From positions 1 to 56,817 of IMG/VR virus record IMGVR_UViG_3300046822_000346: DNA of 56,817 nt; one strand, given 5' to 3'. How positions within the stretch are numbered: the stretch's first letter is position 1; each line of letters opens with the position of its first letter. A program made the translations under genes and the position numbers. This document shows positions 13,817 through 56,743 of this stretch, piece after piece. The notes beneath the pieces were generated by a model that saw nothing but the letters and a program-made list of their open reading frames with translations, had not been told where the DNA came from and searched no databases. The stretch comes from a virus.

Positions 13817-13848
13817 ATTATATGCCAGAAAACATGAGATGGCCCGCC
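13817..13848 (-). promoter_or_regulatory. Cassette promoter (minus strand)
   Basis: Reading on the minus strand: GGCGGGCC (plus 13841-13848), 18 bp, TATAAT (plus 13817-13822), then TAAAACAT. It is the same cassette as in the plus-strand accessory region, pointing left. Confidence 0.8.
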
Positions 13849-13853
13849 GGTTA

Positions 13854-13888
13854 CCAGCCAATTTTGAAGTCAATTCAAAATTGGCTGG
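13854..13888. promoter_or_regulatory. Perfect 15-bp dyad upstream of the cassette promoter
   Basis: Arms 13854-13868 and 13874-13888 around five bases. The core CCAATTTT/AAAATTGG is the same dyad seen, less perfectly, upstream of most cassette promoters at a fixed distance from the -35. It may be an operator or activator site, or part of a terminator for the gene upstream. Confidence 0.65.
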
Positions 13889-13894
13889 CAGCAC

Positions 13895-14194
13895 TTATTT
13901 GTCTAACTCTTTCACGAAGGTCGCGACCGCGGCGTCATCTTCGAGTGCCCTGACAACCTCACTTAGTTGTTCGACCATCAGATCCGCGAGCGTGACCTCT
14001 TGTGCCATCTCCGGAGCCTCTTTCCGGTAGTAGTCCATGTCTTCTTTCGCTGCTGCGAGGAGTGCCGCGGTGTTGATGTATGCGCGCAACATCGCGACAC
14101 GATCTTGCGTATCCTCGGCATTGAATTTGTCGCTGTTGGCACCAGTCCAAGTACCCACGTAAGTGTCCTCCACGAGGTCGCGGGACAAGTCCAT
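13895..14194 (-). CDS. Hypothetical helical protein
   Basis: About 99 residues from ATG 14194. The nearest ribosome binding site (AGGAG) overlaps the upstream stop about 20 bases away, so the start is uncertain. The sequence is helical and acidic (MLRAYINTAALLAAAKEDMDYYRKEAPEM). The family is unknown. It is co-transcribed with the gene upstream. Confidence 0.55.
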   Translation of the reverse strand: MDLSRDLVEDTYVGTWTGANSDKFNAEDTQDRVAMLRAYINTAALLAAAKEDMDYYRKEAPEMAQEVTLADLMVEQLSEVVRALEDDAAVATFVKELDK

Positions 14195-14217
14195 CGGAAC
14201 TTGTCCCGCTTGATCTC

Positions 14218-14517
14218 CTAGCTCTCCATCACCGTGATGGTGGGAAACACGTTCCAACCTTGGAGCTCGAATACGACGCGCGCCTCAGGAAACTCGTCGC
14301 ACAGTTGAAGTGCCAGCGGCGCGAGTTTGTCGCGCATCAGCTTCATCTTGTCCGGCGTCGTCATTCCCGGGACACTATACATGATCATCACGCGTCCCGG
14401 CACCGTGCGATAGATCGACAAGCCAAGGCTTGCGCGATCGTGAGGACGCGCTAGCGCGTCCACGGTGCCAGCGAAAGTGCTGACACGATCAAAGAAATCT
14501 TGGTTGATGCGAACCAC
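14218..14517 (-). CDS. Hypothetical protein; probable non-standard start
   Basis: About 99 residues from GTG 14517, which is too close to its GGAG to be convincing. An in-frame ATC (14508-14506) has the ideal spacing from GGAGGTG. TTG at 14523 is also in frame. The protein has alternating strands and helices (GRVMIMYSVPGM, ARVVFELQGWNVFPTITV) and no known motif. It is the first gene of the leftward operon behind the cassette promoter at about 14.57-14.60 kb. Confidence 0.55.
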   Translation of the reverse strand: MVRINQDFFDRVSTFAGTVDALARPHDRASLGLSIYRTVPGRVMIMYSVPGMTTPDKMKLMRDKLAPLALQLCDEFPEARVVFELQGWNVFPTITVMES

Positions 14518-14537
14518 CTCCAATACGTGGTTTGGAT

Positions 14538-14564
14538 CCAGATGACGTACTTCACATCATCTGG
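14538..14564 (-). other. 5' UTR hairpin of the leftward operon
   Basis: Perfect 8-bp inverted repeat (CCAGATGA at 14538-14545 pairs with 14557-14564), just downstream of the predicted start site of the minus-strand cassette promoter. Comparable hairpins occupy the same place in plus-strand cassettes. Confidence 0.6.
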
Positions 14565-14568
14565 TTCT

Positions 14569-14600
14569 ATTATATGCCAACCTGCGTTGAAAGGCACGCC
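14569..14600 (-). promoter_or_regulatory. Cassette promoter (minus strand)
   Basis: On the minus strand: GGCGTGCC (plus 14593-14600), 18 bp, TATAAT (plus 14569-14574). An AAAACTGG half-site lies upstream at the usual distance. It drives the leftward group ending at 13.3 kb. Confidence 0.8.
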
Positions 14601-14651
14601 GGTAAACTGCCAGTTTTGCGTTCTCATAAAAACTGAAGGCATCGCGTTTAT

Positions 14652-14715
14652 ATGCGAATCTACAAGCAGCTACGTAACTACGCGCTGGGAGGCGTTGCCG
14701 CGCGTAGATTCGCAT
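14652..14715. ncRNA. Possible structured RNA with competing stems
   Basis: A 12-bp perfect inverted repeat (14652-14663 with 14704-14715) encloses 40 bases. An alternative 8-bp stem (CTACGCGC with GCGCGTAG) inside would use part of the same right arm, so the two are mutually exclusive. The 400-base stretch between divergent genes contains no supported gene. A TATAAT at 14745-14750 may be a further promoter. Whether this region is transcribed is unknown. Confidence 0.35.
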
Positions 14716-14820
14716 TGTAGCGCGCTGTAGCACGCAGGCCTTATTATAATAGGTACAGCTACCGCGCAAGTATGAGAAACACCTTCAGTTTCGTGGAACC
14801 TGGAAAACTGGCGCAATCCC

Positions 14821-14852
14821 GGCGTGCCTTTCGTTGGCGGCTGGCATATAAT
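14821..14852 (+). promoter_or_regulatory. Cassette promoter
   Basis: GGCGTGCC at 14821-14828, 18-bp spacer, TATAAT at 14847-14852, followed by TAAAGCAGAGAT. AAAACTGG lies six bases before the CCC of the -35 element. Confidence 0.85.
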
Positions 14853-14930
14853 TAAAGCAGAGATAAGGGAAATGGAAGTACCAAGTCTCAAAGTTTTGGA
14901 GGTGTTGAAATCAACACTCAGAAGCCTCAG

Positions 14931-15113: not shown

Positions 15114-15119
15114 CTCCAA

Positions 15120-15147: not shown

Positions 15148-15197
15148 GAGCCCCACCTGAGGCAGTTCGAACCAATTTTGAAAACTGGCAGATTGCC

Positions 15198-15229
15198 GGC
15201 GTGCCATCCTACGCAGGCTGGCATATAAT
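15198..15229 (+). promoter_or_regulatory. Cassette promoter with UTR hairpin
   Basis: GGCGTGCC at 15198-15205, 18 bp, TATAAT at 15224-15229. A hairpin GGCGG/CCGCC (15244-15258) lies in the leader. Confidence 0.85.
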
Positions 15230-15283
15230 TAAAACATAAGAGCGGCGGGTGTTCCGCCACCAACAAATCAAAGGAGCCCAACA

Positions 15284-15583: not shown

Positions 15584-15595
15584 CCCCCACCTCGC

Positions 15596-15699
15596 TGGTG
15601 TCCAAGCCTCGGCTCGCACCATGATTGCCAAACGCGCAAGCGGGCGGGCAGAGCAGCTCCGGCATAGTCTCCTTCGGGTACGAGTCGAGGCTTGGACAT
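15596..15699 (+). ncRNA. Possible structured RNA closed by an 18-bp stem
   Basis: TGTCCAAGCCTCGGCTCG (from about 15600) pairs with the end of the element (about 15681-15698), one mismatch, enclosing roughly 64 bases. No gene lies inside. It sits between a stop codon and the next cassette promoter. It may be the folded 3' end of the upstream mRNA or a small RNA. Confidence 0.4.
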
Positions 15700-15724
15700 C
15701 AGTTTTTGAAACTGGCATCTAACC

Positions 15725-15756
15725 GGCGTGCCTTTCCGAGCTCCCTGGCATATAAT
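15725..15756 (+). promoter_or_regulatory. Cassette promoter
   Basis: GGCGTGCC at 15725-15732, 18 bp, TATAAT at 15751-15756, followed by TGATACATAAGA. Confidence 0.85.
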
Positions 15757-15795
15757 TGATACATAAGATGGTTCGGGAGTTCGGAGGTACAAAGC

Positions 15796-16238: not shown

Positions 16239-16253
16239 AAAGGAACGATACCC

Positions 16254-16346: not shown

Positions 16347-16358
16347 CTCCCGTACCAC

Positions 16359-16387
16359 GGTGTCCAAGCCAACCCGGCTTGGACACC
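16359..16387 (+). terminator. Hairpin after the microprotein gene
   Basis: Perfect 12-bp stem GGTGTCCAAGCC (16359-16370 with 16376-16387), five-base loop. The left arm is the same sequence found near 15.6 kb and 17.26 kb. It lies 12 bases after a stop and ahead of the next cassette. There is no clear T-run. Confidence 0.5.
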
Positions 16388-16411
16388 AATTTCCAAAATT
16401 GGTCGGAAACC

Positions 16412-16443
16412 GGCGTGCCATCGCGCGAGGTCTGGCATATAAT
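16412..16443 (+). promoter_or_regulatory. Cassette promoter with UTR hairpin
   Basis: GGCGTGCC at 16412-16419, 18 bp, TATAAT at 16438-16443. The leader carries CGCGG/CCGCG (16459-16473). The upstream dyad ACCAATTT/AAATTGGT is perfect here. Confidence 0.87.
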
Positions 16444-16495
16444 TAAAGCATAAGAGAGCGCGGGAGTTCCGCGACAAGGTTCGGAGGACAAAGCA

Positions 16496-16807
16496 ATGCA
16501 GCCATTCACGACCACCCGCGAACAGCAGATCAAAGCCTACCACAAGATCTACGCGCAACTCAAGCGCGCCGGCTTCATCGCCAGCACAGTGATGGCCTGG
16601 GAGGACAGCCACAGTTCGATCCTGCGCCTGGGCGCCAACAACGCCCAGATTCCCAAGAAAGAGGATCGCGAGGCGCGTGAGATGTTCTTGGCGCAGGTGT
16701 TCGCCTTCCTCGAGTCCAAAGGGTACCAGGTCACCTTCGAGCCGTTTCGTCAGATCAGTGACTACAGCTTCATGAACGCCCGCTTGACCATTTACTTCGA
16801 GTTCTAA
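16496..16807 (+). CDS. Hypothetical protein, 'LxxAGF' family
   Basis: 103 residues. It begins with a helix KAYHKIYAQLKRAGF, then alternating strands and a second helix EMFLAQVFAFLESKGY. The helix-L-x-x-A-G pattern recurs in the proteins starting at 17625, 18031 and 19246, suggesting paralogues. Function unknown. Starts at ATG with TTCGGAGG at standard spacing. Confidence 0.65.
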   Translation: MQPFTTTREQQIKAYHKIYAQLKRAGFIASTVMAWEDSHSSILRLGANNAQIPKKEDREAREMFLAQVFAFLESKGYQVTFEPFRQISDYSFMNARLTIYFEF

Positions 16808-16822
16808 AACTGGTGCCAGCCA

Positions 16823-16854
16823 GGCGTGCCATTTCAGCACGCCTGGCATATAAT
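16823..16854 (+). promoter_or_regulatory. Cassette promoter with palindromic spacer and UTR hairpin
   Basis: GGCGTGCC at 16823-16830, 18 bp, TATAAT at 16849-16854. The -35 and spacer form a near-perfect palindrome (CCAGGCGTGC with GCACGCCTGG). The leader has GAGATG/CATCTC (16862-16884). Confidence 0.85.
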
Positions 16855-16905
16855 TAAAGCAGAGATGGGGACGTACCGCATCTCACAGGTTTGGAGGACA
16901 CGCAC

Positions 16906-17250
16906 ATGGCCAAGAATCTTGCGGACATGACTGACGAGCAGATCATCGACAACATCGACCACGCGCAGGCGACCTACAACGATGTGTACAACACAGAGGC
17001 CGGCTTGACCGCGGGTATGAAAGAGGCCATCCTCGAACACCTCACTGCCTACCTCACCGAATTGCAAGTCGAACAGCGTCGCCGAGACGGCAAGACCGTG
17101 ACCATCACGTTGGGGTCCGAAGCTTGGGGTTACTGGAAGCTACTGGCACAGCGCGAGGGCATCGACCCTGAAACCTACTTGCAGACCTTCGTTGGGGACG
17201 TTGATTGGCTCGCAGACGAGTGGGCCAAAGTGACTTACATCGAAGACTAA
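16906..17250 (+). CDS. Hypothetical protein
   Basis: 114 residues, ATG with TTTGGAGG upstream. The first half is helical (MTDEQIIDNIDHAQATYNDVY); the second half has VTITLGSEAWGYWKLLAQREGIDPETYLQTF, similar in shape to small RHH-type or CopG-like segments but without enough support to claim this. Acidic C-terminus. Family unknown. Confidence 0.65.
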   Translation: MAKNLADMTDEQIIDNIDHAQATYNDVYNTEAGLTAGMKEAILEHLTAYLTELQVEQRRRDGKTVTITLGSEAWGYWKLLAQREGIDPETYLQTFVGDVDWLADEWAKVTYIED

Positions 17251-17267
17251 AAACTGGTGTCCAAGCC

Positions 17268-17299
17268 GGCGTGCCATTCCACCGGCTTGGGCATATAAT
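17268..17299 (+). promoter_or_regulatory. Cassette promoter
   Basis: GGCGTGCC at 17268-17275, 18 bp, TATAAT at 17294-17299. The region around the -35 is a palindrome (CAAGCCGG with CCGGCTTG). Confidence 0.85.
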
Positions 17300-17337
17300 T
17301 AAAACATAAGATAGTTCATTAGTTTGGGGGCAACGCA

Positions 17338-17900: not shown

Positions 17901-17918
17901 GCGGCTTGTACGCCAGTT

Positions 17919-17947
17919 TTTGCCAGTTTTGGAAACTGGCAAAAACC
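17919..17947. promoter_or_regulatory. Dyad upstream of a cassette promoter
   Basis: TTTTTGCCAGTTT pairs with AAACTGGCAAAAA around three bases. It is flanked by T and A runs and could terminate transcription on either strand, or bind a regulator as part of the cassette. Confidence 0.6.
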
Positions 17948-17948
17948 C

Positions 17949-17980
17949 GGCGGGCCTTTCCTTGGTATCTGGCATATAAT
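17949..17980 (+). promoter_or_regulatory. Cassette promoter with UTR hairpin
   Basis: GGCGGGCC at 17949-17956, 18 bp, TATAAT at 17975-17980. The leader hairpin GCGG/CCGC spans 17995-18008. Confidence 0.85.
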
Positions 17981-18030
17981 TAAAACATAAGAGAGCGGGA
18001 CAGTCCGCACAAGGTTTGGAGGCAAGCACA

Positions 18031-18777: not shown

Positions 18778-18849
18778 TGGATAACGCGACGTAGCTCCCT
18801 TTGGGCTTGTACACCAGTTTTGCCAATCTTAAAAACTGGCGGCTTACCC

Positions 18850-18880
18850 GGGTGCCAAACAACGTTGTTTGGCATATAAT
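18850..18880 (+). promoter_or_regulatory. Cassette promoter
   Basis: GGGTGCC variant -35 ending at 18856, 18 bp, TATAAT at 18875-18880. The upstream dyad CCAGTTTT/AAAACTGG is perfect. Confidence 0.83.
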
Positions 18881-18932
18881 TAAAACAGAGATGAGGAGGT
18901 ACCAAGTCTCAAAGAGTTTGGAGGCAAACACA

Positions 18933-19163
18933 ATGACACACTTCGACAACAGCTGGATGACACCGGCGGCGCGGAGGGTCTGGCAGCAGATCGAGGACGG
19001 CGCGGTGTTCGTAATTTGGAGCGATGCGATGGGCGTAGGCGCGTGTAGCATCGAAGTGAACGGTGTGGACGTGCCAGTGAAGAAGAATGTGGGACAGCAG
19101 ATTCCAGTGCAGCGCATGATCAAGATCAGCGACAAGCCGCAAAAGTTCGTAGTGCGTAAGTAA
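18933..19163 (+). CDS. Hypothetical protein
   Basis: 76 residues, ATG with TTTGGAGG upstream. A short helix (AARRVWQQIEDGAVFVIW) is followed by beta strands (ACSIEVNGVDVPVKK; RMIKISDKPQKFVVRK). It ends in a basic tail. Family unknown. Confidence 0.62.
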   Translation: MTHFDNSWMTPAARRVWQQIEDGAVFVIWSDAMGVGACSIEVNGVDVPVKKNVGQQIPVQRMIKISDKPQKFVVRK

Positions 19164-19178
19164 GCAGTTTATATGCCC

Positions 19179-19210
19179 GGCGTGCTTTTTCAGCACGCCG
19201 GGCATATAAT
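19179..19210 (+). promoter_or_regulatory. Cassette promoter with 11-bp palindrome between -35 and -10
   Basis: GGCGTGCT at 19179-19186, 18 bp, TATAAT at 19205-19210. GCCCGGCGTGC and GCACGCCGGGC form a perfect inverted repeat covering the -35 and most of the spacer. Confidence 0.85.
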
Positions 19211-19245
19211 TAAAACATAAGAGTTCGATAGTTTGGAGGCGCACG

Positions 19246-19805: not shown

Positions 19806-19851
19806 GCGCACAAACGTTCAGAGCCAATAAAAGCCGCCGAGTCCCGAATCC

Positions 19852-19881
19852 CGTGCCTTCTCCGCAAATCCCAGGTACAAT
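19852..19881 (+). promoter_or_regulatory. Cassette-like promoter, TACAAT variant
   Basis: CGTGCC at 19852-19857, exactly 18 bp, TACAAT at 19876-19881. The AAAACTGG half-site is missing, so this is a reduced form. Confidence 0.7.
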
Positions 19882-19919
19882 ATCTACAGAGCCTAACGCA
19901 TTCCCCGAGGAGGCACCCG

Positions 19920-20150
19920 ATGCAGGGTCCAATCCAGATTACAGTGTACTCGACCGGCGACTACGCCGCGTTTGATCAGCCCGCATCGGTCGTTGTACAA
20001 GACGGCGAACGATGCCTAGTGTGCGGCCGCACGGTGGGGCCGCGCAGTGAAGTAGCCATTGGCTTCCAGGTGCTGACGCCGCACGGCGCTGGCGTCGTGT
20101 GTTTAGAGGATGCCGACGTACGCGAGTCGGCTGAGGAGTTCCACGCATGA
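19920..20150 (+). CDS. Small CxxC protein
   Basis: 76 residues, ATG with GAGGAGG. It is beta-rich, with RCLVCGRTVG (CxxC) in the middle and a lone VVCLED later, as in small zinc-binding phage proteins. Its stop overlaps the next ATG (ATGA). Family unknown. Confidence 0.62.
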   Translation: MQGPIQITVYSTGDYAAFDQPASVVVQDGERCLVCGRTVGPRSEVAIGFQVLTPHGAGVVCLEDADVRESAEEFHA

Positions 20151-20521
20151 GCAACAACGGCAACGGTTGGGATCCCGTCAAGTTTGATCAGTGGCTGACT
20201 ACGCCGCCGGATGAGGACGAGGATCTAGAGCAGCCGCCTGAACCGGGTATGACCTGGAATCCGGCGCGCGAAGAGTGGTCACACGAACCCCTGACCCACG
20301 ACGAGTGGGAGAGCTTGACGCCTAGCGAACAGGCGTTCTACGAGGAGCCGCTGCAGGACACGTTCGAGGTGGACCTCAAAGACCTCGCCAGGCTCCAGCC
20401 GGACTTCGCAGCCGGCCTACGCGACGAGATCAGCAAGGTATTCCAGGTGCCGGCGCAATTGCTGCAGCCGCGCAATGATAACCAAAGCGTATCCGAAGGA
20501 GGTGGAAGCAAACAAAACTGA
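20147..20521 (+). CDS. Acidic protein with tryptophan-rich segments
   Basis: 124 residues, coupled to the upstream gene. It is very acidic (PPDEDEDLEQPPEPGMTW) with repeated W/E pairs (ARE-EWSHEPLTHDEWESL). The C-terminal third is helical. Family unknown; a charge-mimic role is only a possibility. Confidence 0.62.
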   Translation: MSNNGNGWDPVKFDQWLTTPPDEDEDLEQPPEPGMTWNPAREEWSHEPLTHDEWESLTPSEQAFYEEPLQDTFEVDLKDLARLQPDFAAGLRDEISKVFQVPAQLLQPRNDNQSVSEGGGSKQN

Positions 20522-20542
20522 TTCCAAAATTGGCTTGAAACC

Positions 20543-20574
20543 GGCGTGCCGTATGCCGGTGGATGAGGTACAAT
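20543..20574 (+). promoter_or_regulatory. Cassette promoter, TACAAT variant
   Basis: GGCGTGCC at 20543-20550, 18 bp, TACAAT at 20569-20574. AAAATTGG lies six bases before the -35 element. Confidence 0.8.
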
Positions 20575-20637
20575 ATCAATAGAAGCCACGCAAAATGAGT
20601 GCGGGCAGCAGATCAAGCAGTTCGGAGGAACACAGCA

Positions 20638-21450
20638 ATGGCCAAGTCCAAGATTCAGAGCGACGAGATCCAGAGCGACGAGATCGCGGCTGAGAACGAG
20701 GAGCTCAGCGGCTTCGACGACGAGTCCGAGATCGAAGATGACGGCGAGGCGGACGAGGCTGACGACGAAGAGTCCGAAGGCGAAGAGTCCGAAGGCGAAG
20801 AGCCGGCCGAAGAGAGCACCGAGTCCGATGGCGATGAGCAGCCTAAGGCCGCCAAGCGCGGCGGGCGGCCTAAGTTGGAGCGCGACGAGAAGGAGTGCAA
20901 GACGCACCCGCACTACTTCCCAGCCGAGCCGAGCCTGCGGCCGATCGATGAATTCGCCAACGGCGGTAAGCACTCGTACTGCCGCCGCTGCATGAGCCTT
21001 CGCTCGAAGGACGTGCGCGACGCCAAGAACGCGGCCGAGGGCAAGGAGCCACGCGCTCCGAAACAGCCTAAGGCGGCGAAGGAGCCAAAGGAGGCGAAAG
21101 CCTCCACCAGCTCCAAGCGCGGTGGCAAGAAGGCCAAGGTCGAGCCGCAGAACAAGGCGGACCTGACACTCGGCGCCGATCCAGCCGAGAACACTCCGTT
21201 CCTGGTCATCGACAACCATACGCATCAGGCACTGCCCGGCGGCTTCGCATTCCGTGAGTACGAGCTCTTCGGCGACGAGTACGCCCGCGTCCGCGGCGTA
21301 CATTGGACCGACCGCGAAGATGTGACGGCGCAGATGGTCACCTTCCCGCTTGACGCGGTCGTGCCGGCCATGGAGCAGGACGTCGAGCGTGCCGAGTCCG
21401 CTCGCCTGATCCAGATCGCGGCGGCTGAGGCGGAGCCGGTCGAGGCGTAA
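20638..21450 (+). CDS. Acidic/basic bipartite protein with Cys/His motif
   Basis: 270 residues, ATG with TTCGGAGG. Residues 1-65 are extremely acidic with near-repeats (QSDEIQSDEI; SEGEESEGEE). Residues 75-120 hold a Cys/His set (KECKTHPHYFP ... GKHSYCRRCMSLR) suggesting a zinc site. A Lys/Ala/Pro-rich linker (KQPKAAKEPKEAKAS) follows, then an ordered C-terminal domain of about 100 residues. The layout suggests a nucleic-acid-associated scaffold. Family unknown. It ends just before a strong terminator. Confidence 0.68.
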   Translation: MAKSKIQSDEIQSDEIAAENEELSGFDDESEIEDDGEADEADDEESEGEESEGEEPAEESTESDGDEQPKAAKRGGRPKLERDEKECKTHPHYFPAEPSLRPIDEFANGGKHSYCRRCMSLRSKDVRDAKNAAEGKEPRAPKQPKAAKEPKEAKASTSSKRGGKKAKVEPQNKADLTLGADPAENTPFLVIDNHTHQALPGGFAFREYELFGDEYARVRGVHWTDREDVTAQMVTFPLDAVVPAMEQDVERAESARLIQIAAAEAEPVEA

Positions 21451-21661: not shown

Positions 21662-21695
21662 TTCCAATCCAAGAATATGTACGACCAGTTTTTCT

Positions 21696-21731
21696 GGCGG
21701 GCTGGATTTATCTGTTGGCTTGGCATATAAT
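21696..21731 (+). promoter_or_regulatory. Cassette promoter with 4-bp longer spacer and UTR hairpin
   Basis: GGCGGGCT at 21696-21703 and TATAAT at 21726-21731, 22 bp apart instead of 18. It may be a weakened copy. The leader hairpin GCGG/CCGC spans 21745-21758. Confidence 0.65.
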
Positions 21732-21780
21732 TAAAACAAGGGAAGCGGGATGGACCGCAACCCGATCGGAGGTAAGTAAC

Positions 21781-22077: not shown

Positions 22078-22105
22078 AACCAATTTTGGAAACTGGTGGC
22101 TGCCC

Positions 22106-22137
22106 GGCGTGCCATCCACCAGTTTCTGGCATATAAT
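22106..22137 (+). promoter_or_regulatory. Cassette promoter
   Basis: GGCGTGCC at 22106-22113, 18 bp, TATAAT at 22132-22137. AACTGGTGG and CCACCAGTT form a palindrome around the -35. Confidence 0.85.
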
Positions 22138-22177
22138 TAATTCATAAGAAGGTTCGAGAGTTCAGGAGGCAAAGCAA

Positions 22178-41751: not shown

Positions 41752-41796
41752 GTCTATCTCCTCCCGGGTGCACATCCGGGGTATAGTTCTATGGTT

Positions 41797-41826
41797 ATGA
41801 TACCGCGCCAACGCGCAAACTGCACG
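41797..41826 (-). promoter_or_regulatory. Late promoter before the prohead protease
   Basis: On the minus strand: CGTGCA (plus 41821-41826), exactly 18 bp, TATCAT (plus 41797-41802). It matches the genome-wide 18-bp-spaced design and would boost protease and capsid transcription. Confidence 0.6.
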
Positions 41827-41866
41827 ACCCCGTCACGCTCAGTTTGTAAAATTGACCCAAATGGCT

Positions 41867-42324: not shown

Positions 42325-42999
42325 CTACGCCGGATCGTATGTCTCGGTACAGCGGCAGTTCACAATCTCTCCTGCATCTGCCCCCAAAGAACTATCCCCC
42401 GGGAACATCAGCTGAGAGCCACCGACATCATACGGATCCGTGAGTGCTTGCTGCTGCCCATCTGCGGCAGCGTGGGTCTCGCGAGTACGTAATCCCCCGG
42501 TTGCCAGCCATGTATGCACCAGAGTGAGTCCCGTGCCCAACGCATACTGCTGACTGGCGCAGTTACTCGCCGCCACAGTCTCGGTCCGCGCGATCATAGT
42601 AGCGCGCGATCCCAGGCCCACATATAGACTCGATATACTCGCGGCAATGTCGTCCATACCCAGGCCGGCCTCAACAGCCGCAGCCACCACTTGGGCAACC
42701 TGATCGCGGGTGGTATCGGTGATATCGGATACCTTCGAGAGACCCACAGGGCCAAGAATATAATCCACCACATCTTCCAGCCACGGATCCTCGTCATAGA
42801 GATCCTCCAGGTCTGGATCCATATCAACATCGTAGTCATCTTTGCGCTTTGACGGCACCCACAGTTTGGCACTGGTGTACGGATCCAACTCTTTGGCCGT
42901 AATAGTACCAAAGTCCTGTCCCACGGCCACATAGGTTGCAACCAATAGTTGCTGCCAGGCCTGTTTGGCTGGGTCCGACATCAGATAGGCCGACACCAC
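42325..42999 (-). CDS. SPP1 gp7/MuF-like head morphogenesis protein
   Basis: 224 residues. The C-terminal half has RATMIARTETVAASNCASQQYAL and CRCTETY, the MuF minor head core. An acidic N-terminal segment (DVDMDPDLEDLYDEDPW) is unusual. Start is GTG 42999 or ATG 42981; neither has a strong ribosome binding site. Follows portal by two bases. Confidence 0.8.
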   Translation of the reverse strand: MVSAYLMSDPAKQAWQQLLVATYVAVGQDFGTITAKELDPYTSAKLWVPSKRKDDYDVDMDPDLEDLYDEDPWLEDVVDYILGPVGLSKVSDITDTTRDQVAQVVAAAVEAGLGMDDIAASISSLYVGLGSRATMIARTETVAASNCASQQYALGTGLTLVHTWLATGGLRTRETHAAADGQQQALTDPYDVGGSQLMFPGDSSLGADAGEIVNCRCTETYDPA

Positions 43000-45899: not shown

Positions 45900-46155
45900 A
45901 CTCTGTATCCTCTCCCCTGAGAATACCAGACCCGCTATGCCTGGTACCCTCAGAGTCAGGAGAGTCCCACATATGGCCAAATAACGAGCGTGCCGGCGCG
46001 TGCTCGTCTCTCGTAGTATAGAACACGAGCGTTCGCAACGGCACGATGGGCCGAATGGTTAGGGCCGAAAGGGTCGCCTGCAGCGCGGAAATCTGCAGTT
46101 GCAGAATATCCAACTGTGCGTGAAGCTTCTGAATGGCTTCAAGCGACCCCACCAT
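45883..46155 (-). CDS. Small coiled-coil protein between queC and terminase
   Basis: About 90 residues from ATG 46155 (GTG 46152 has better spacing from AGGAG). The N-terminal 40 residues are a leucine-rich helix (LEAIQKLHAQLDILQLQISALQATL), the rest is probably disordered and ends in an acidic tail. It lies six bases after queC. Function unknown. Confidence 0.6.
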   Translation of the reverse strand: MVGSLEAIQKLHAQLDILQLQISALQATLSALTIRPIVPLRTLVFYTTRDEHAPARSLFGHMWDSPDSEGTRHSGSGILRGEDTEYGGDT

Positions 46156-46160: not shown

Positions 46161-46895
46161 CTACAGATCTCCGCCAGTGTGCAGATCGAGACGTGCCACT
46201 TCGCAGGTCTCTTCCCAGGTGCAAGCATACGGCGTCGTATCGTACACGTGCGCCTGATACAGGGCCTGGCGCCGCTCCGAACACGTGCCACACTTGCCGC
46301 AGTGAATATCGCCACCCTCGTAACAGGACCACGTCTCCTGCACCGGCACACTATAAATCTCAGCCATACGCGCGATGTTCGTCTTGGACAACATCACGAA
46401 CGGCGCCCGCAGGATCGGCAGTGGGTCCGCCCATTCATTGCCCAATCGCAACGCGGTATTGAGTGCTGCGATGAACTCCGGCCGACAGTCGGGGTAGATC
46501 GCATGATCCCCTGCATGTACCCCAGTATACACCCTGGAGGCATGTTCCGCCACCGCAATCCCATAGGCGATGGAGAGCATGATCGCGTTGCGGTTCGGCA
46601 CAACCGTTGCCTTCATGTTGTCGGCAGCATAGTGGCCCATAGGCACTGCGCCGCCGTGAGCTGTCAGCGCCGAGCCGTGGAGCAGTTCGGCCATGAAGTC
46701 CATCTCGATCACGATGTGCTCGGCATGTAGCCGTCTGGCAGTTTGTGCCGCGAACTGGAGCTCTTTGCGATGCCGCTGGCCGTAGTCAAAACTCAGCAGG
46801 AGCAGGTCATCCTGCACGGTCCCATTGCCGCTCACCACATGAGCAAGCGTGACGCTGTCCAAGCCGCCGCTACAGATCACAATAGACTTCGCCAA
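46161..46895 (-). CDS. queC: 7-cyano-7-deazaguanine (preQ0) synthase
   Basis: 244 residues from TTG 46895 (AGGAG upstream). It converts carboxy-deazaguanine to preQ0 with ATP and ammonia. PP-loop motif CSGGLDSVT near the N-terminus; C-terminal zinc site CYEGGDIHCGKCGTC. No fused amidotransferase domain. It lies about 36 kb from dpdA and on the opposite strand, inside the terminase region, with its own promoter. Confidence 0.93.
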   Translation of the reverse strand: MAKSIVICSGGLDSVTLAHVVSGNGTVQDDLLLLSFDYGQRHRKELQFAAQTARRLHAEHIVIEMDFMAELLHGSALTAHGGAVPMGHYAADNMKATVVPNRNAIMLSIAYGIAVAEHASRVYTGVHAGDHAIYPDCRPEFIAALNTALRLGNEWADPLPILRAPFVMLSKTNIARMAEIYSVPVQETWSCYEGGDIHCGKCGTCSERRQALYQAHVYDTTPYACTWEETCEVARLDLHTGGDL

Positions 46896-49180: not shown

Positions 49181-49209
49181 ATTATACCCCACTTACGCTG
49201 GCATTTCAA
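49181..49209 (-). promoter_or_regulatory. Promoter before the HNH leader
   Basis: On the minus strand: TTGAAA (plus 49204-49209), 17 bp, TATAAT (plus 49181-49186). It overlaps the last codons of the winged-helix-like gene. Confidence 0.72.
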
Positions 49210-49690
49210 CGGGATCTTCCGGGCTCTTTGGGGCAGGTAATCGATCCGGTGTGTAGTAACGCAAGCGATGCGGGTCTTCTTTGACCACGACAATGCGGCC
49301 CTGAGCTTCGAGCCACGCTAAAATCTGGCGCCCTTCGGCTGCGGCCACCACGTGTGCCAGCTGCGTGCCCGTGAGGCCGGGAAAGCTCCGTATATAAGCA
49401 TACAATCGCGCAGCGTTGCGATTGAGGCCTTCCGGATACGTGACCTCCGGCAAGTTGAGCTCACTGATGGCCCAGACCTCACTGGGTGAGCCGGTGATGT
49501 ACCACTTGGAGCGTTGCACCTTGCCTTCGAGGGCCAGTTCCTGCAAGAGATACCGCACGGCGCGGCGCGATTCTTTGGGCAAGATCAAGAACACCGGCAA
49601 GACGCGGTGTTCGGCTAGTTCAGCGAGAATACCCTGTTTGAGCTTCTCGCGGTTGTCTCCGGGAGCTTCGGGAATCAAAATACGAGGCAT
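49193..49690 (-). CDS. Winged-helix-like DNA-binding protein
   Basis: 165 residues. LPKESRRAVRYLLQELALEGKVQRSKWYITGSP and YIRSFPGLTGTQLAHVVAAAEGRQILAWLEAQGRIVVVKED each look like a winged-helix module ending in a beta hairpin, suggesting a tandem. First gene of the leftward late transcript and hence a possible late-gene regulator. Family unproven. Confidence 0.6.
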   Translation of the reverse strand: MPRILIPEAPGDNREKLKQGILAELAEHRVLPVFLILPKESRRAVRYLLQELALEGKVQRSKWYITGSPSEVWAISELNLPEVTYPEGLNRNAARLYAYIRSFPGLTGTQLAHVVAAAEGRQILAWLEAQGRIVVVKEDPHRLRYYTPDRLPAPKSPEDPVEMPA

Positions 49691-49716
49691 GGAACAGTTC
49701 CCCCCTTTCTGCTCTT

Positions 49717-49746
49717 ATTATACCATCACCCGCGTGCCCCGTGCAC
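49717..49746 (-). promoter_or_regulatory. Leftward promoter at the early/late divide
   Basis: On the minus strand: GTGCAC (plus 49741-49746), 18 bp, TATAAT (plus 49717-49722). Its -35 is shared with the rightward promoter because GTGCAC is self-complementary. Confidence 0.7.
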
Positions 49747-49769
49747 CGATCGATCTGCCGGACTATACT
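49740..49769 (+). promoter_or_regulatory. Rightward promoter at the early/late divide
   Basis: CGTGCA at 49740-49745, 18 bp, TATACT at 49764-49769. Drives the small RHH-like gene at 49814. Confidence 0.72.
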
Positions 49770-49772
49770 TAT

Positions 49773-49797
49773 AGCAGATGTAATACTTGCATCTGCT
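49773..49797. promoter_or_regulatory. Operator candidate
   Basis: Perfect dyad AGCAGATG (49773-49780) and CATCTGCT (49790-49797), nine bases apart, covering the predicted start site of the rightward transcript. Well placed for feedback by the first gene product. Confidence 0.6.
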
Positions 49798-49813
49798 GAA
49801 AGGAGACCGAACC

Positions 49814-50080
49814 ATGTCACCGAGCACTCCGGCACCAAACAGTCGGCCACTTGAGCCGCGCGTCCAAGTCACGCTCCAGATGCCGCAAACCTTGTACCAG
49901 GCCGTCGAACGGCTCACACGCCAAGGCGAGCGCCACGCTTTCCTGTTGAACATTATCCAACAGGATCCAGCAGTCGCCAAAACCGTCCTCGCGCTCCAAG
50001 CAGAGGCGGCAGAACGGGCCCGCTTTGAGGAGCTGGGCCGCAAGGCTGCGGAGCAAGGACTCCTGACCCCTGGCACGTAA
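49814..50080 (+). CDS. Small RHH-like protein, possible autorepressor
   Basis: 88 residues, ATG with AAAGGAGA. PRVQVTLQMPQTLYQAVERLTRQGERHAFLLNIIQQDP has the strand-helix-helix outline of ribbon-helix-helix proteins, followed by a long helix (VLALQAEAAERARFEELGRKAAEQG). The dyad at its own promoter supports autoregulation. Confidence 0.62.
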   Translation: MSPSTPAPNSRPLEPRVQVTLQMPQTLYQAVERLTRQGERHAFLLNIIQQDPAVAKTVLALQAEAAERARFEELGRKAAEQGLLTPGT

Positions 50081-50117
50081 ATGGCCATTTGGCGCCATCA
50101 GGGCATATGACGTACAT

Positions 50118-50157
50118 TCCCTGTGCTTGCTGTGACCAGCGGCACAGGGAGTTTTTT
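50118..50157 (+). terminator. Rho-independent terminator
   Basis: TCCCTGTGC pairs with GCACAGGGA, then a run of six T. Closes the short transcript of the RHH-like gene. Confidence 0.85.
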
Positions 50158-50175
50158 GCGCGAAATCCGAGCCAC

Positions 50176-50460
50176 GATTCCCGATCGCTGATCGATCATG
50201 AGCGATATTTCCCTATCGGGAATCGCGGCGAATGCACACTAGCTATACGCTGCCATGCCCTCATGACCGATATGACCGTTCCATGAGGGGGTAATTATAT
50301 ATAATGAGAGAAAGTGTTGGATTTGTATATATGGATCACAGTTTTATCGATCATATCGATCATCTCTTATTGTCAACCCACATAAATTGTGCAGGGGCCA
50401 CATTACCGATCGCATTTGGCTCGCTCATTATCGCTCATCGATCGGGAATCATGTTCACTT
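50176..50460. other. AT-rich inverted-repeat region, origin candidate
   Basis: No convincing gene. GATTCCCGAT (50176-50185) and its complement ATCGGGAATC (50215-50224 and 50441-50450) form local and long-range inverted repeats. CCCTCATG/CATGAGGG pairs across 50258-50289. An AT stretch (AATTATATATAAT) and many GATC/CGAT elements follow. It lies just upstream of the primase-helicase. An origin is inferred, not shown. Confidence 0.45.
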
Positions 50461-50504
50461 CTCTCTGTGGCACGAATAGTATCCAGATAATCCAAAAAGC
50501 CCGG

Positions 50505-50533
50505 TTGCAGTTTTGATCGTGCCGATATATACT
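50505..50533 (+). promoter_or_regulatory. Promoter before the primase operon
   Basis: TTGCAG at 50505-50510, 17 bp, TATACT at 50528-50533. A second TATACT lies at 50568-50573. Confidence 0.65.
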
Positions 50534-50661
50534 AAGAGAGTACGCACGCACTGCAGGTCAATCAGCGTATACTAACTCCCATATCCTCACTGCAGTACGT
50601 GCTGTACCTTCCTCGCGCGTTACACCAGGCGTTCACACCACAGGAAAGGAACGGACATACC

Positions 50662-50865
50662 ATGTCCATCAGCAACCCGGTCGGCCGGCCTCGTAAGCCG
50701 TGGGACCAGAAGCGCACCAGTATCAGCATCACGTTGCCGATTCGTGTCCTACGCGCTATTGACGCGTTGGCCGACAATCGCTCCGGGTTCGTGTCAGAGC
50801 TGGTGATCAACGACCCGCGTATCCAGGTCGCTGTGAACCAGTTGGATCAGCCCGCCGAGGAGTAG
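50662..50865 (+). CDS. Ribbon-helix-helix DNA-binding protein
   Basis: 67 residues from ATG 50662. A basic N-terminus (GRPRKPWDQKR) leads to the strand TSISITLP and the helices IRVLRAIDALADNRSGFVSELVIND, a clear CopG/MetJ-like pattern. It is four bases ahead of the primase start and may regulate replication gene expression. Confidence 0.72.
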   Translation: MSISNPVGRPRKPWDQKRTSISITLPIRVLRAIDALADNRSGFVSELVINDPRIQVAVNQLDQPAEE

Positions 50866-52990: not shown

Positions 52991-52995
52991 GCGTC

Positions 52996-53026: not shown

Positions 53027-53081
53027 CTGCTACCGGGAATCCCCCATTCGGGTCAATTTTCAGCCCGGCGGGTAAAAGCTA

Positions 53082-53111
53082 CGTGCCTTCTCAGCGGGTC
53101 GGGAGTATACT
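53082..53111 (+). promoter_or_regulatory. Promoter, CGTGCC-18-TATACT
   Basis: CGTGCC at 53082-53087, 18 bp, TATACT at 53106-53111. Immediately downstream is a dyad GGTACT/AGTACC (53122-53138) within a larger inverted repeat CGGGTC/GACCCG (53095-53155), a likely operator or leader hairpin. Confidence 0.75.
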
Positions 53112-53177
53112 CAATCATGTAGGTACTGATGTAGTACCAAGAGAGGTGCGACCCGAGTAAACAAAGGAGACCGTATC

Positions 53178-54104
53178 ATGGCCCACCGGTTCATCGAGCG
53201 CTTCGAGGTTTTCATGTCGAACAACATCTTGTTCGTCTACCTCGTGTCGCTGTTTCTGGGCACCGCGGCATTCTTCACTGGCCAGGCGCTTGGCCTCAAC
53301 GCGAACGTGATCTATGTGGTCGGCATTGCTACAGCGCTGGCTGTTGAGGTGCACAGCTTCCTCTCGCAGCGCTTGGCGCGCGGCCTGAAGGAGGAGCGTG
53401 ATAGCCACCCTTTCAAGGGCCCGCTGTGGGTGGCGGCGGATCGCAAGTTCCAGTTCCACCTCCGGATTACGGTCGGGCTGGTGCTGTTCTCGATGTTCAA
53501 CAGTGTAGCGTTCTGGATCTCGATCGATCGACCAGTAACAGCCGGCGACTGGATCGCTTCCGTTTCGCGGGGCATGGCACTCCCAGCCTTCTTCTTGTTG
53601 GCAGGGTTCTTGACGCCACTACGCACCAATACGGCCGAAGTGGTGCAAGCGGCCCATGCCGACATGATTCGCACAACCATGAAGGTGACGCTGCGCCAGT
53701 TCGAGAAACGGCTCAAGGCGGTGCAGAAGGCTGGCGCGAACTTGGTGCCAGTGGTAGCGACCCTCTTGGACAATCACGGCGACACGCAATCGGCGACACA
53801 GATTCGCTTGGTAGACGCGGCGCTAACGCTCGCCGAGGGGCGTGGCTCGCCGATGAACTTCCCGATGGCGATTTCCGCCGGGCTACCGCAAGTGGTTTCG
53901 GAGCCAGAAGCGCCCAGCGCGTCTACTTCCAGCGGGTTTGGAGTCCGCGCGGCGAACAGTGGTATGCTCAGGCAGGCCGCACGGGAGTGCTGGCACCTTG
54001 GCATGACGCCCGCTGAGGTCGCCGCTCAGGTCGGATGCTCCACGGCCTACGCCAGCAAGTTGGTCAAAGAGTTCGAAGCCGAGCTCACCTCGGTGTATGC
54101 CTAG
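53178..54104 (+). CDS. Membrane protein with C-terminal helix-turn-helix
   Basis: 308 residues. Four likely membrane segments: about 16-38 (ILFVYLVSLFLGTAAFFTGQ), 42-60 (NVIYVVGIATALAV), 93-113 (ITVGLVLFSMFNSVAFWI), 125-148 (GMALPAFFLLAGFL). A helical linker (MKVTLRQFEKRLKAVQKAG) follows, then GMTPAEVAAQVGCSTAYASKLVKEF, a clear HTH of the sigma/recombinase-like type. A membrane-tethered DNA-binding protein is unusual; roles in anchoring replication or in sensing are possible. Confidence 0.7.
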   Translation: MAHRFIERFEVFMSNNILFVYLVSLFLGTAAFFTGQALGLNANVIYVVGIATALAVEVHSFLSQRLARGLKEERDSHPFKGPLWVAADRKFQFHLRITVGLVLFSMFNSVAFWISIDRPVTAGDWIASVSRGMALPAFFLLAGFLTPLRTNTAEVVQAAHADMIRTTMKVTLRQFEKRLKAVQKAGANLVPVVATLLDNHGDTQSATQIRLVDAALTLAEGRGSPMNFPMAISAGLPQVVSEPEAPSASTSSGFGVRAANSGMLRQAARECWHLGMTPAEVAAQVGCSTAYASKLVKEFEAELTSVYA

Positions 54105-54164: not shown

Positions 54165-54599
54165 ATGGAACTTTTAGCCATCGACCCTGGGCCGCATTGC
54201 GGCTATGTCTGGTGTAACCTGTACAACAACCAACTAGAGATCCTGCTCGCCGGCACCTACGTTCCGCAGAATCTCGAGATGGTGTGGACGTTCTTCAAAC
54301 GCTACATTGAAAGCGCCGATGTCGTGATTGTTGAAGACTACCGCACCGTGCGCCAGCTGAGCAAGGACGGACTGTTTACCATTGAAGCGCTGGGGGTGCT
54401 GATTGCCGAGAGCCAGCTGCTCTGTACCCATCGGGTCGACGAGCCAGTCGTGCTCCAACTACCCTCGGCCAAAAAGCCCTTCGCCAAGCAGGCTGCAAGC
54501 CGCATGCCGCGGCAAGGCCCGCATGCGCAAGATGCTTTGGCGCACGTGTTAGCCTATCTTCATCTGCGCAAATTAGTGCCGGTCAATTGGACTCCCTAG
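54165..54599 (+). CDS. RuvC-like Holliday junction resolvase
   Basis: 144 residues from ATG 54165 with GGAGAGTAAT. RNase H-type fold: AIDPGPHCGY with the first Asp, VVIVEDYRT with the Glu, FTIEALGVLIAESQ, and HAQDALAHVLAYL with the last Asp. It would resolve branched DNA before packaging. The start follows the terminator of the upstream gene by only 15 bases, so its transcription source is unclear. Confidence 0.85.
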   Translation: MELLAIDPGPHCGYVWCNLYNNQLEILLAGTYVPQNLEMVWTFFKRYIESADVVIVEDYRTVRQLSKDGLFTIEALGVLIAESQLLCTHRVDEPVVLQLPSAKKPFAKQAASRMPRQGPHAQDALAHVLAYLHLRKLVPVNWTP

Positions 54600-54600
54600 G

Positions 54601-54630
54601 CGGGCATTTCCCTGAGTCCGCGGGTATACT
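54601..54630 (+). promoter_or_regulatory. Promoter, CGGGCA-18-TATACT
   Basis: CGGGCA at 54601-54606, 18 bp, TATACT at 54625-54630. The leader has CCCGC/GCGGG (54639-54652) before AAGGAGG. Confidence 0.72.
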
Positions 54631-54668
54631 TAAGACAGCCCGCGCTTGCGGGTGTAAGGAGGTGTCCC

Positions 54669-55130
54669 GTGAAACTAAGCGACATGTCACCGCAAGAACG
54701 TTTGCACCGTTGCCTAGAGATCGCCGAAGAACGGCACTTGTACATCTTGGCAAAAGACCCCGTGTCGATGTTCATCTCGGATGGACACGGCAGCACCCAC
54801 GAGGTGCGCTATCGCGGCGAACACATTGTTTCCTGCCACAATGCTGCCGGCGCGGTCTGCACCAGTTTTGCGTACAACGGCATGTGCTCGCACGCGGCCC
54901 TGGCGTTGCTTAACCTACGGTACGAGGCCGATCTGGAATACGCGATCGCTCTTGGCACGCGCGACGTATTCGAGACCGATCTGGCCGCGGACGAACGGTG
55001 GCGATCGTACGTCGAGCAACTCGCGCTGTTGCCACAGATCGCGTTTGAAGCCACGGAAGAGCGTTTGGCGCAGCCTCTGTTGCATCGTGCCAGCGCCAGA
55101 CCTTTCTCACTCTGGAGGGCCGACGAATGA
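54669..55130 (+). CDS. SWIM-like zinc protein
   Basis: 153 residues from GTG 54669 (AAGGAGG upstream). SCHNAAGAVCTSFAYNGMCSHAALALLNL has Cys...Cys-x-His in the order of a SWIM zinc finger, used in protein or DNA contacts. The N-terminal strands (LYILAKDPVSMFISDG) are also SWIM-like. Overlaps the next gene by four bases (ATGA). Confidence 0.65.
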   Translation: MKLSDMSPQERLHRCLEIAEERHLYILAKDPVSMFISDGHGSTHEVRYRGEHIVSCHNAAGAVCTSFAYNGMCSHAALALLNLRYEADLEYAIALGTRDVFETDLAADERWRSYVEQLALLPQIAFEATEERLAQPLLHRASARPFSLWRADE

Positions 55131-55480
55131 CGTATACCGAGGACGAGATCAAACGTATGCGAGCGACACTGACCTCTGAGGGTTTCTTCACCGAGGTCCC
55201 AGAAGTGATCCACGTCGAGGACGAGCCGCCGCACGAGATCGCCCACTATCCAGACAACCCGCTCAAGACCGCGTTCCAGATACCGGTACCGGCATCGCTC
55301 GTACCCAGGAAGGGCCTGTTCCCCGGAGTGCGCTTGGCCCTCTACACGGTCCAGACCATTCAGTGGCAGGCGTGGCACACTATCAAGGTGGAGTTTCAGC
55401 CCAAGAACAATCGCGTAGTGCTCCACGGGTACAAGGAGATTGTGGCCATTCGTTTCCCGGTACTGGAGCCAGAGGTCTAA
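55127..55480 (+). CDS. Hypothetical protein
   Basis: 117 residues, ATG overlapping the previous stop. Acidic N-terminal half, beta-rich C-terminal half (VRLALYTVQTIQWQAWHTIKVEF, NRVVLHGYKEIVAIRFP). Family unknown. Confidence 0.62.
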   Translation: MTYTEDEIKRMRATLTSEGFFTEVPEVIHVEDEPPHEIAHYPDNPLKTAFQIPVPASLVPRKGLFPGVRLALYTVQTIQWQAWHTIKVEFQPKNNRVVLHGYKEIVAIRFPVLEPEV

Positions 55481-55481
55481 C

Positions 55482-55796
55482 ATGAGTTTAGACGACGCTG
55501 CCCACCAATCACCCCAACAGCGGGCTCGTGCCCAGCGCCGAGCACGCGAAACAAAACACCGCGCGGAGTACCGGGAAGCGCTAGGTCAGGAAATGGCAGA
55601 GTTCAACTGGGCCATCCAAGCCGGAACCACCGTGACATACCAGGATCGTTTTGGCGACCATCTGGTGGAGAAAGTCGACGCCTTTTTCACGCTACATTGT
55701 GTCGACGGATACCGTGCCCGTATCGCCGACGGACCAGTTTGGACTGATCTCTTGGTACAAGCCGGCATAGCGCGGCATACCCGGTTACTGGAATGA
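55482..55796 (+). CDS. Hypothetical protein with basic N-terminus
   Basis: 104 residues from ATG 55482, one base after the upstream stop. Arg/Gln-rich helix (QQRARAQRRARETKHRAEY), then strands (TVTYQDRFGDHLVEKVDAFFTLHCVDGYRARIADG). Family unknown. Confidence 0.6.
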   Translation: MSLDDAAHQSPQQRARAQRRARETKHRAEYREALGQEMAEFNWAIQAGTTVTYQDRFGDHLVEKVDAFFTLHCVDGYRARIADGPVWTDLLVQAGIARHTRLLE

Positions 55797-55843
55797 GTGC
55801 CGGTCAACTGCATGGTGTCTCCCCGGGCATCCTGGGGGATGCA

Positions 55844-55874
55844 CGTGAGGACCCGCCCCTTGCTCTCCTATACT
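55844..55874 (+). promoter_or_regulatory. Possible promoter before the secreted CHAP gene
   Basis: TATACT at 55869-55874 with CGTGAG at 55844-55849 (19 bp). CTAGG/CCTAG forms a small dyad across 55873-55886. Confidence 0.5.
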
Positions 55875-55909
55875 AGGAATACCTAGAGTACGCCCAGAGG
55901 AGGGCAAGT

Positions 55910-56632
55910 ATGCGACAGCAGCAGCGCGTGTTCCTGGTCCTAATGTGTTTCGTCGGCATAGTGTGGTTTAGCAGCGCTCCGGCGGCGCACGCACAAGGGT
56001 TGACCCCTTCAGGAGGCATTTACTTGTCACACGGACAAGCTTGTGTTACCTGGAAATCCGGGTCGTGGACCTACACGCATTGCACGACGCACTGGCACAT
56101 CTCAAACGGGCGCATCATTAGTGACAACCCGTCCTGGGTGCCTAACAACGGAGTGCCGACACACTCCACCGCCTCGGCTCCAACTCGTCCTGCATCCGTC
56201 ACCGTGACCTCGTCTCGCGCGGGACGTACCGGGCCCTGCACTTCCGCGGCTATGTTCGGCGCACGTATTACCCAGTGGACGCCACCGCCAGGGTGCTACG
56301 CGAACATCTATTACCCGCGCTTGTCAGACTATGTCTCGCGACCTTCGTTTGGTTGGTGCAACTGGTTGCCAGAGGTCATGCAACCTCAGTATACTGGCAA
56401 CGTCGCACTGCACCTACCAAGTCATGCTACTCCGCGCGTAGGGTCCACGGTGTTCTTCGCACCCGGGGTACAAGGTGCAAGCTCGGCTGGACACTATGCG
56501 TACCTAGTTGGTATTGGTCCCAACGGGTGGTTGCTGGTGGAGGAGATGAACTTCTACTTCAGGGGCGGCGGCTGGGCCAAGATCGACTACCGGTACGTTC
56601 ATGTGGGAGCTGGAATCCAGTTCCGCTACTAA
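55910..56632 (+). CDS. Secreted CHAP-domain hydrolase
   Basis: 240 residues, ATG with AGAGGAGG. Signal peptide at residues 1-28 (VFLVLMCFVGIVWFSSAPAAHA, cut after AHA). A Ser/Thr/Pro-rich linker to about 115, then a CHAP domain: Cys150 in FGWCNWLPE, PRVGSTVFFAPG, and His195 in SAGHYAYLVGI, with VEEMNF. It would cut peptidoglycan outside the membrane. Its place away from the late lysis cassette and its export signal are unusual. Confidence 0.8.
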   Translation: MRQQQRVFLVLMCFVGIVWFSSAPAAHAQGLTPSGGIYLSHGQACVTWKSGSWTYTHCTTHWHISNGRIISDNPSWVPNNGVPTHSTASAPTRPASVTVTSSRAGRTGPCTSAAMFGARITQWTPPPGCYANIYYPRLSDYVSRPSFGWCNWLPEVMQPQYTGNVALHLPSHATPRVGSTVFFAPGVQGASSAGHYAYLVGIGPNGWLLVEEMNFYFRGGGWAKIDYRYVHVGAGIQFRY

Positions 56633-56661
56633 ACACCACGCGTGCTCTAGGTATGCCAATA

Positions 56662-56692
56662 AACTGCGCAGGATTGACTCCTGCGCAGTTTT
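56662..56692 (+). terminator. Rho-independent terminator
   Basis: AACTGCGCAGGA pairs with TCCTGCGCAGTT around five bases, then TT. Follows the CHAP gene. Confidence 0.85.
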
Positions 56693-56711
56693 GCATATTG
56701 GGCAGGTACCC

Positions 56712-56743
56712 GGCGTGCCTTTTCCATCTGCCTGATTTATAAT
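56712..56743 (+). promoter_or_regulatory. Cassette promoter at the right end
   Basis: GGCGTGCC at 56712-56719, 18 bp, TATAAT at 56738-56743. The -10 context differs (TGATTTATAAT). It shows the cassette family extends beyond the window. Confidence 0.78.

Follow-up and report, generated by a model that had tools for sequence, protein, structure and literature searches.

Predicted sigma-70-type promoters with a split upstream dyad and putative leader stem-loops recur in a tailed-phage genome

The window analysed here, the whole 56,817 bases of the virus record IMGVR_UViG_3300046822_000346, contains about 20 related predicted promoters with common parts and common spacings: an upstream half-site, a CGTGCC-like box and, as a rule 18 bp further on, a TATAAT-like -10 hexamer. 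We explain them best as a class of sigma-70-type promoters that would be driven by an activator of the phage, with 5´ hairpins stabilising the mRNA, and give this reading a probability of about one half. A coherent phage promoter regulon, as the original prediction had proposed, is well supported by conservation, by enrichment of the 18-bp spacing, by motif scores and by leader hairpins. New here are the inverted partner of the half-site, 1 or 11 bp away, the stem-loops of the leaders and the hairpins in most intergenic gaps of the core cluster.

Thirteen core cassettes are located between 13.8 and 22.2 kb; each is named by the lowest window coordinate of its TATAAT, and the first T of this hexamer is taken as -12. 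Two are leftward (13817 and 14569) and eleven rightward (14847, 15224, 15751, 16438, 16849, 17294, 17975, 18875, 19205, 21726 and 22132), in line with the predicted two leftward copies near 13.8 and 14.6 kb and the rightward remainder; the copy predicted at the right edge corresponds to a related site (56738). Column conservation over the 13 copies revealed the half-site AAAAYTGG at -55 to -48, a CCGG CGTGCC block at -40 to -31 and a TGGCATATAATTAAAACATAAGA block at -17 to +5. In the last of these TGGCATATAAT covers -17 to -7 and TAAAACATAAGA comes after it; every core site reads TGGCATATAAT or GGGCATATAAT, and a CA is invariant at the predicted start. TATAAT is present in 13 of 13, the sites having been chosen partly by this hexamer, and the bases from -28 to -19 within the spacer are variable while the functional columns are fixed.

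The order of CGTGCC-like box, exactly 18 bp and TATAAT, usually then TAAAACATAAGA, was thus confirmed at the predicted positions and orientations. The claim of at least 14 copies with all parts was overstated, since 13 carry (T/G)GGCATATAAT and 11 of these AAAAYTGG or GAAACTGG at -55/-56; the half-site keeps its fixed distance in these 11 and is missing from 19205. A six-base gap between AAAACTGG and CCGGCGTGCC did not hold up: this literal pattern had no match even with 3 mismatches, and most copies have a gap of 7, one having 8. Nor is the strict TGGCATATAAT form of the cassette genome-wide, being confined to 13.8-22.2 kb.

The motif is not equally frequent inside genes: leave-one-out scores for -40 to +5 were 29-60 bits, and the best genic position reached 0.1 bits. 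Outside the core 13, a CGTGCC/TATAAT pair (one mismatch each) was found seven times at a spacing of 18, always intergenic, one of the seven (19168, minus strand) being the mirror of cassette 19205. All other spacings from 8 to 32 gave 0-3 matches each, except 9 (7 matches, mostly genic). Six of the seven pairs, together with 54625 (CGGGCA, 18 bp) and 46015 (CGTGCC, 19 bp), make up eight looser promoters outside the core, all intergenic, with a CGTGC-like box and 18 bp (19 in one). The sites predicted at 49740, 53082, 54601 and, on the minus strand, 41797 are real and have the CGTGCC-like element and the 18 bp. Of the 18 exact copies of AAAAYTGG in the window, 16 are no more than 90 bp away from a cassette -10.

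AAAAYTGG has an inverted partner, CCARTTTT, located 1 or 11 bp away. A scan of all gaps from 0 to 15 bp for dyads with at least 14 of 16 positions matching gave six at gap 1, five at gap 11, one each at gaps 0, 10 and 12, and none at 2-9 or 13-15. Two of these, the gap-12 dyad and one of the gap-11 dyads, begin at 17923 and are built from the half-sites of cassette 17975, which leaves four independent gap-11 dyads; apart from the gap-0 case the strong dyads are intergenic. The proximal half-site is fixed at -55 (-56 in one copy), and the distal one shifts by 10 bp, which is one helical turn, a geometry that would fit a dimer contacting the polymerase via its proximal half. An imperfect gap-1 dyad at 41797 and 56738 is located one base further upstream. 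The dyad spans -64 to -48 and does not reach into the -35/-10 region; the centre of the gap-1 form is at about -56. Since a split dyad (gap 1 or 11) is kept at a constant upstream distance, a dedicated activator, one of two options in the original prediction, is the best reading. A second dyad, TGCCA...TGGCA across the spacer, was rejected: TGGCA is kept in copies without its partner, and CGTGCC also stands without TGGCA at 20569, 53106 and 56738.

Most of the predicted RNAs open with a stem-loop within nucleotides 1-28: summed over 21 leaders, the folding energy had z = -9.4 against dinucleotide shuffles. This signal is gone in segments from +10 onward and in segments starting at -30 to -10, and its sharp onset at the predicted +1 backs the predicted starts indirectly. 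The hairpins had first been spotted by eye and were therefore retested on sites picked by DNA pattern alone, which gave z = -6.1 for the core and z = -4.7 for seven non-core sites (0 of 200 shuffles each). Segments before 58 other genes had z values from -4.0 to +1.5 depending on the offset, so that this control is not fully clean; the folding excess per site was at most about 0.9 kcal/mol in the control compared with about 3 kcal/mol at the promoters. Leaders of the TTG-type promoters of the window gave z = -1.2 (five sites only). The leader stems vary in sequence and not in position, a pattern in favour of RNA structure over a DNA site. An Rfam search gave no match. In Escherichia coli a 5´-terminal structure shields mRNA against RppH and RNase E (PMC3997798), and the leader hairpins may stabilise the phage mRNAs in this way.

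Hairpins are also frequent between the genes of the cluster, where 12 of 15 intergenic gaps have a stem score of at least 9, compared with 5 of 24 elsewhere. Most of these hairpins are without a T run and are therefore not standard intrinsic terminators; our guess is that they might serve insulation or RNase processing. Seven cassettes use the variable spacer as an inverted-repeat arm, with sequence and partner differing each time, and the spacer-arm cassettes 16849, 17294, 19205 and 22132 occupy the shortest cassette-bearing gaps (82-100 bp).

In the mechanism that we propose, host RNA polymerase with its main sigma factor would read the cassettes through the perfect sigma-70 -10, and the weak CGTGC[C/A] box at the fixed 18 bp would substitute for a -35. 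A phage-encoded dimeric activator would bind the inverted half-sites CCARTTTT...AAAAYTGG, the proximal one at -55 and the distal one beyond it on the same helix face at a gap of 1 or 11 bp, and, once bound, would recruit the polymerase to the poor -35. Transcription would begin at the conserved CA, and the initial ~28 nucleotides of the RNA would form a stem-loop that shields the 5´ end from degrading enzymes. The small accessory genes at 13.8-22.2 kb would for the most part have such a promoter together with an intergenic hairpin, looser versions would drive the replication and structural operons, and the promoters may share their timing. Only tentatively do we put forward the full combination: a dimeric activator accepting two half-site settings one helical turn apart, a replaced -35, a 5´-terminal stem-loop on nearly all transcripts that couples the promoter class to mRNA stability, and a spacer that doubles as a hairpin arm in compact gaps.

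Several observations weigh against this mechanism. No activator protein was identified, and a dyad centre near -56 is not the classical position of a class I activator. The half-site is missing from cassette 19205 and a good -35 box from 21726, and four core leaders (15751, 17294, 19205 and 22132) form no strong hairpin. No relative with the cassette was found at the exact patterns tried. In addition, GTGCCA with a 17-bp spacer already reaches 10/12 to sigma-70, and an activator may thus be unneeded. The host may, moreover, have a -35 preference of its own.

It is conceivable, though we consider it unlikely, that the cassettes are ordinary constitutive promoters: the main sigma factor of the host would tolerate GTGCC[A/T] as -35, the A/T-rich dyad would be a UP-like element or the site of a host factor, and no phage activator would be involved. 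The predicted distance of the -35 from TTGACA depends on the register, since GTGCCA at 17 bp has 4/6 matches; the -10 is ideal, as predicted. Six of the 13 cassettes have 10/12 sigma-70 matches with the 17-bp spacer, and the other seven stay below 9/12 (sigma-70 hexamers at 16-18 bp, threshold at least 9/12). The six high-scoring cassettes, the perfect -10, the lack of a detected phage regulator and the presence of the same box before most operon types, as at the looser sites, would all suit constitutive promoters. However, TTGATT-18 and TTGAAA-17 promoters are also present in the window, so that the host seems to read a normal box, and the specificity of a CTGG-bearing half-site in a dyad of gap 1 or 11 goes beyond that of a UP element.

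The search for a regulator covered several families. Sigma70_r2 (PF04542) and Sigma70_r4 (PF04545) had no match in the window, while the controls matched, and a phage sigma factor was rejected as a candidate. With sigma domains absent and the -10 a perfect sigma-70 hexamer, the modified polymerase that had been suggested as the other option is unsupported. The family of T7-like single-subunit phage RNA polymerases (PF00940) had no match in the window, and no control genome matched either. MotA and AsiA were not among the results of the PHROGs and Pfam scans of the examined proteins, no search having been aimed at them. P2-type late promoters (Ogr/Delta) have a dyad centred near -55, and the gap-1 dyads of the window share this centre position (about -56); the Ogr_Delta zinc finger (PF04606) had no match in the window, its E. 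coli control matched, and a P2-type activator was rejected. A possible winged-helix protein (49193-49690, minus strand) is a guess at the regulator from a low-confidence structure model, whose mean predicted local distance difference test (pLDDT) score of 56 makes it usable as a secondary-structure hint only. Small proteins at 49814-50080, 50662-50865 and 6690-6905 look ribbon-helix-helix-like, with weak library matches, and are candidates as well, as is the gene at 53178-54104.

Phage-wide promoter classes and repeats are known from other systems. The middle promoters of T4 (sigma appropriation by MotA/AsiA) likewise combine a strong sigma-70 -10 with a phage element in place of the -35 at many operons. 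The MotA box is located 12 +/- 1 bp from the -10 (PMC2988021), whereas the box of the cassettes has another sequence, is 18 bp upstream and is joined by the upstream split dyad. In cluster K mycobacteriophages the SAS repeat is found before many genes, about half of the copies with an adjoining inverted repeat; SAS is tied to translation starts and ESAS has 17-bp arms with variable spacers (PMC3203893), whereas the arms seen here are 8 bp long, are 1 or 11 bp apart and lie upstream of a complete promoter (-35 and -10). The cluster O mycobacteriophage Corndog has a 17-bp dyad repeated through its genome; of the 34 copies, 10 fall in the central or 3´ portion of a gene, and no orientation relative to transcription was found (PMC4351075). 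The dyad of the window, in contrast, is phased to -35/-10, and its strong copies are intergenic but for one. The promoters of phiEco32 and 7-11 are also a phage-wide class with an own consensus at several operons, but their consensus sequences are different and they rely on a sigma factor encoded by the phage (PMC8948821), and no sigma domain was found in the window.

Rhizobium phage RHph_X2_25 and its relatives have capsid proteins related to that of the window and a repeated element at many promoters. Their TTGACAAATTTG lies over the -35 TTGACA, a placement suited to a repressor operator, whereas the dyad of the window is upstream and the -35 is different. In these phages we observed TTGACAAATTT(G) over -35-like boxes in L008 (5029, 6247, 26015, 26673, 36264 and 36404), L009 (6729), L064 and L070, which is likely a dispersed operator. 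The dyad of the window might accordingly be read as a phage repressor operator, dispersed as in temperate phages, with cassettes silent in the lysogen, and ESAS and stoperators, besides the apparent operator-promoters with TTGACAAATTTG over the -35 (RHph_X2_25, L064, L070), are precedents. We regard this as improbable: integrase (PF00589) and HTH_3 (PF01381) had no match in the window with positive controls, negatives that leave other repressor types possible, and the dyad at -64 to -48 is off the -35/-10 that the repeat of the relatives overlaps. Copying of a promoter-leader module by gene shuffling, the likeness reflecting recent common descent and not one regulator, has still slimmer prospects: the leaders form a few similar types and three small proteins (16496, 19246 and 18031) are weakly similar to one another, but the downstream proteins are mostly unrelated, spacer and flanks vary around fixed functional columns, and the leader stems differ in sequence, not position. 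Gene duplication as sole cause was rejected because the cluster proteins are mostly unrelated.

No copy of the cassette itself turned up in the IMG/VR and GTDB contigs, in which exact patterns were tried; matches in L010 and L011 lie inside apparent coding sequence without a promoter and were taken as chance. Capsid relatives in GTDB are alphaproteobacterial, with 41-49% identity, and those in IMG/VR reach 52%, the best outside the window virus having 50-52%. The capsid relatives have no box excess at 18 bp, one of the three hits being L001, the same virus, and for a protein of the cluster no relative was found in the searched viral contigs or phage records.

The core cassettes differ in detail. 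On the minus strand, 13817 (13783-13874; TATAAT 13817-13822) and 14569 (14535-14626; TATAAT 14569-14574) have the distal half-site at gap 11; in the former, spacer and leader form the two arms of a 16-19 bp inverted repeat, and the latter has a strong 5´ leader hairpin. The remaining cassettes are on the plus strand. A weak distal half-site at gap 11 is found in 14847 (14795-14886) and a perfect dyad, CCAATTTT-G-AAAACTGG, in 15224 (15172-15263), both with a leader hairpin. The dyad has gap 1 in 15751 (15699-15790; spacer pairing with the 5´ leader), 16438 (16386-16477; leader hairpin and a separate upstream hairpin at 16359-16387), 18875 (18823-18914; self-palindromic spacer, leader hairpin) and 22132 (22080-22171; spacer pairing with the operator half-site). 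Cassette 17975 (17923-18014) combines a gap-1 with a gap-11 half-site and has an operator hairpin at 17916-17946 and a leader hairpin. In 16849 (16797-16888), which also has a leader hairpin, the -35 box and the spacer pair in an 11-bp hairpin, the spacer providing the 3´ arm, as it does for a 9-bp hairpin in 17294 (17242-17333). Cassette 21726 (21674-21765) has the canonical TGGCATATAATTAAAACA, a leader hairpin and a degenerate -35 box in which CGTGCC is not recognisable. In 19205 (19153-19244), which is without AAAAYTGG, an 18-bp inverted repeat at 19168-19210 makes the promoter nearly symmetric; the minus-strand mirror at 19168, CGTGCT-18-TATAAA, is a possible divergent or antisense start.

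The looser promoters are located in front of various genes. On the plus strand, CGTGCC-18-TACAAT (19824-19915) precedes the gene at 19920 and CCGGCGTGCC-18-TACAAT (20517-20608), with AAAATTGG at -55, the gene at 20638. CGTGCA-18-TATACT (49712-49803), with a strong leader hairpin, is upstream of the ribbon-helix-helix-like gene at 49814. CGTGCC-18-TATACT (53054-53145), with a TCAATTTT half-site, and CGGGCA-18-TATACT (54573-54664) both have a leader hairpin and are upstream of the genes at 53178 and 54669, respectively. CCGGCGTGCC-18-TATAAT (56686-56777; TATAAT 56738), with its imperfect dyad, would, across the contig join, drive the replication operon. On the minus strand, CGTGCA-18-TATCAT (41763-41854), with the other imperfect dyad, is upstream of the prohead protease and capsid genes, and the weaker CGTGCC-19-TATACT (45981-46072), with a leader hairpin, is upstream of the terminase gene.

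The genes are those of a tailed phage, with terminase, portal, protease, capsid and tape-measure on the minus strand and primase, helicase, a Sak4-like protein and DNA polymerase on the plus strand. The window ends (56806-56817 and 1-60) are without long repeats; joined with a 2-base overlap they give an open frame that, read by eye, begins MASTFFGKRVV. Given this in-frame join, the genome is probably near-complete and either circular or circularly permuted. The metagenome records L001 and L102 match the window at 100% over the aligned bases (41.4-46.6 and 38.5-44.7 kb), so that the window is no assembly accident over these stretches; neither match covers the cassette cluster. L001 is without 8 bases of the window at 42516, the sole difference over 6.2 kb, and this gap may be either a natural variant or an assembly error. 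A 580-bp noncoding stretch (50080-50662) between two small ribbon-helix-helix-like genes is rich in CGATCG/GATCGATC and TATATA and is a possible replication origin or partition site. Genes at 7167-9310 and 46161-46895 encode QueD-like (PF01242), QueE-like, GTP cyclohydrolase and QueC-like proteins, which likely form a 7-deazaguanine pathway, perhaps for DNA modification. A pyrimidine dimer DNA glycosylase domain (PF03013) at 4813-5346 scores above the curated cut-off.

If the activator-driven promoter class with its leader hairpins is real, one regulator would govern most operons of a phage that seemingly has no sigma factor of its own, and an RNA hairpin linked to the start site would mark the transcripts of this phage.

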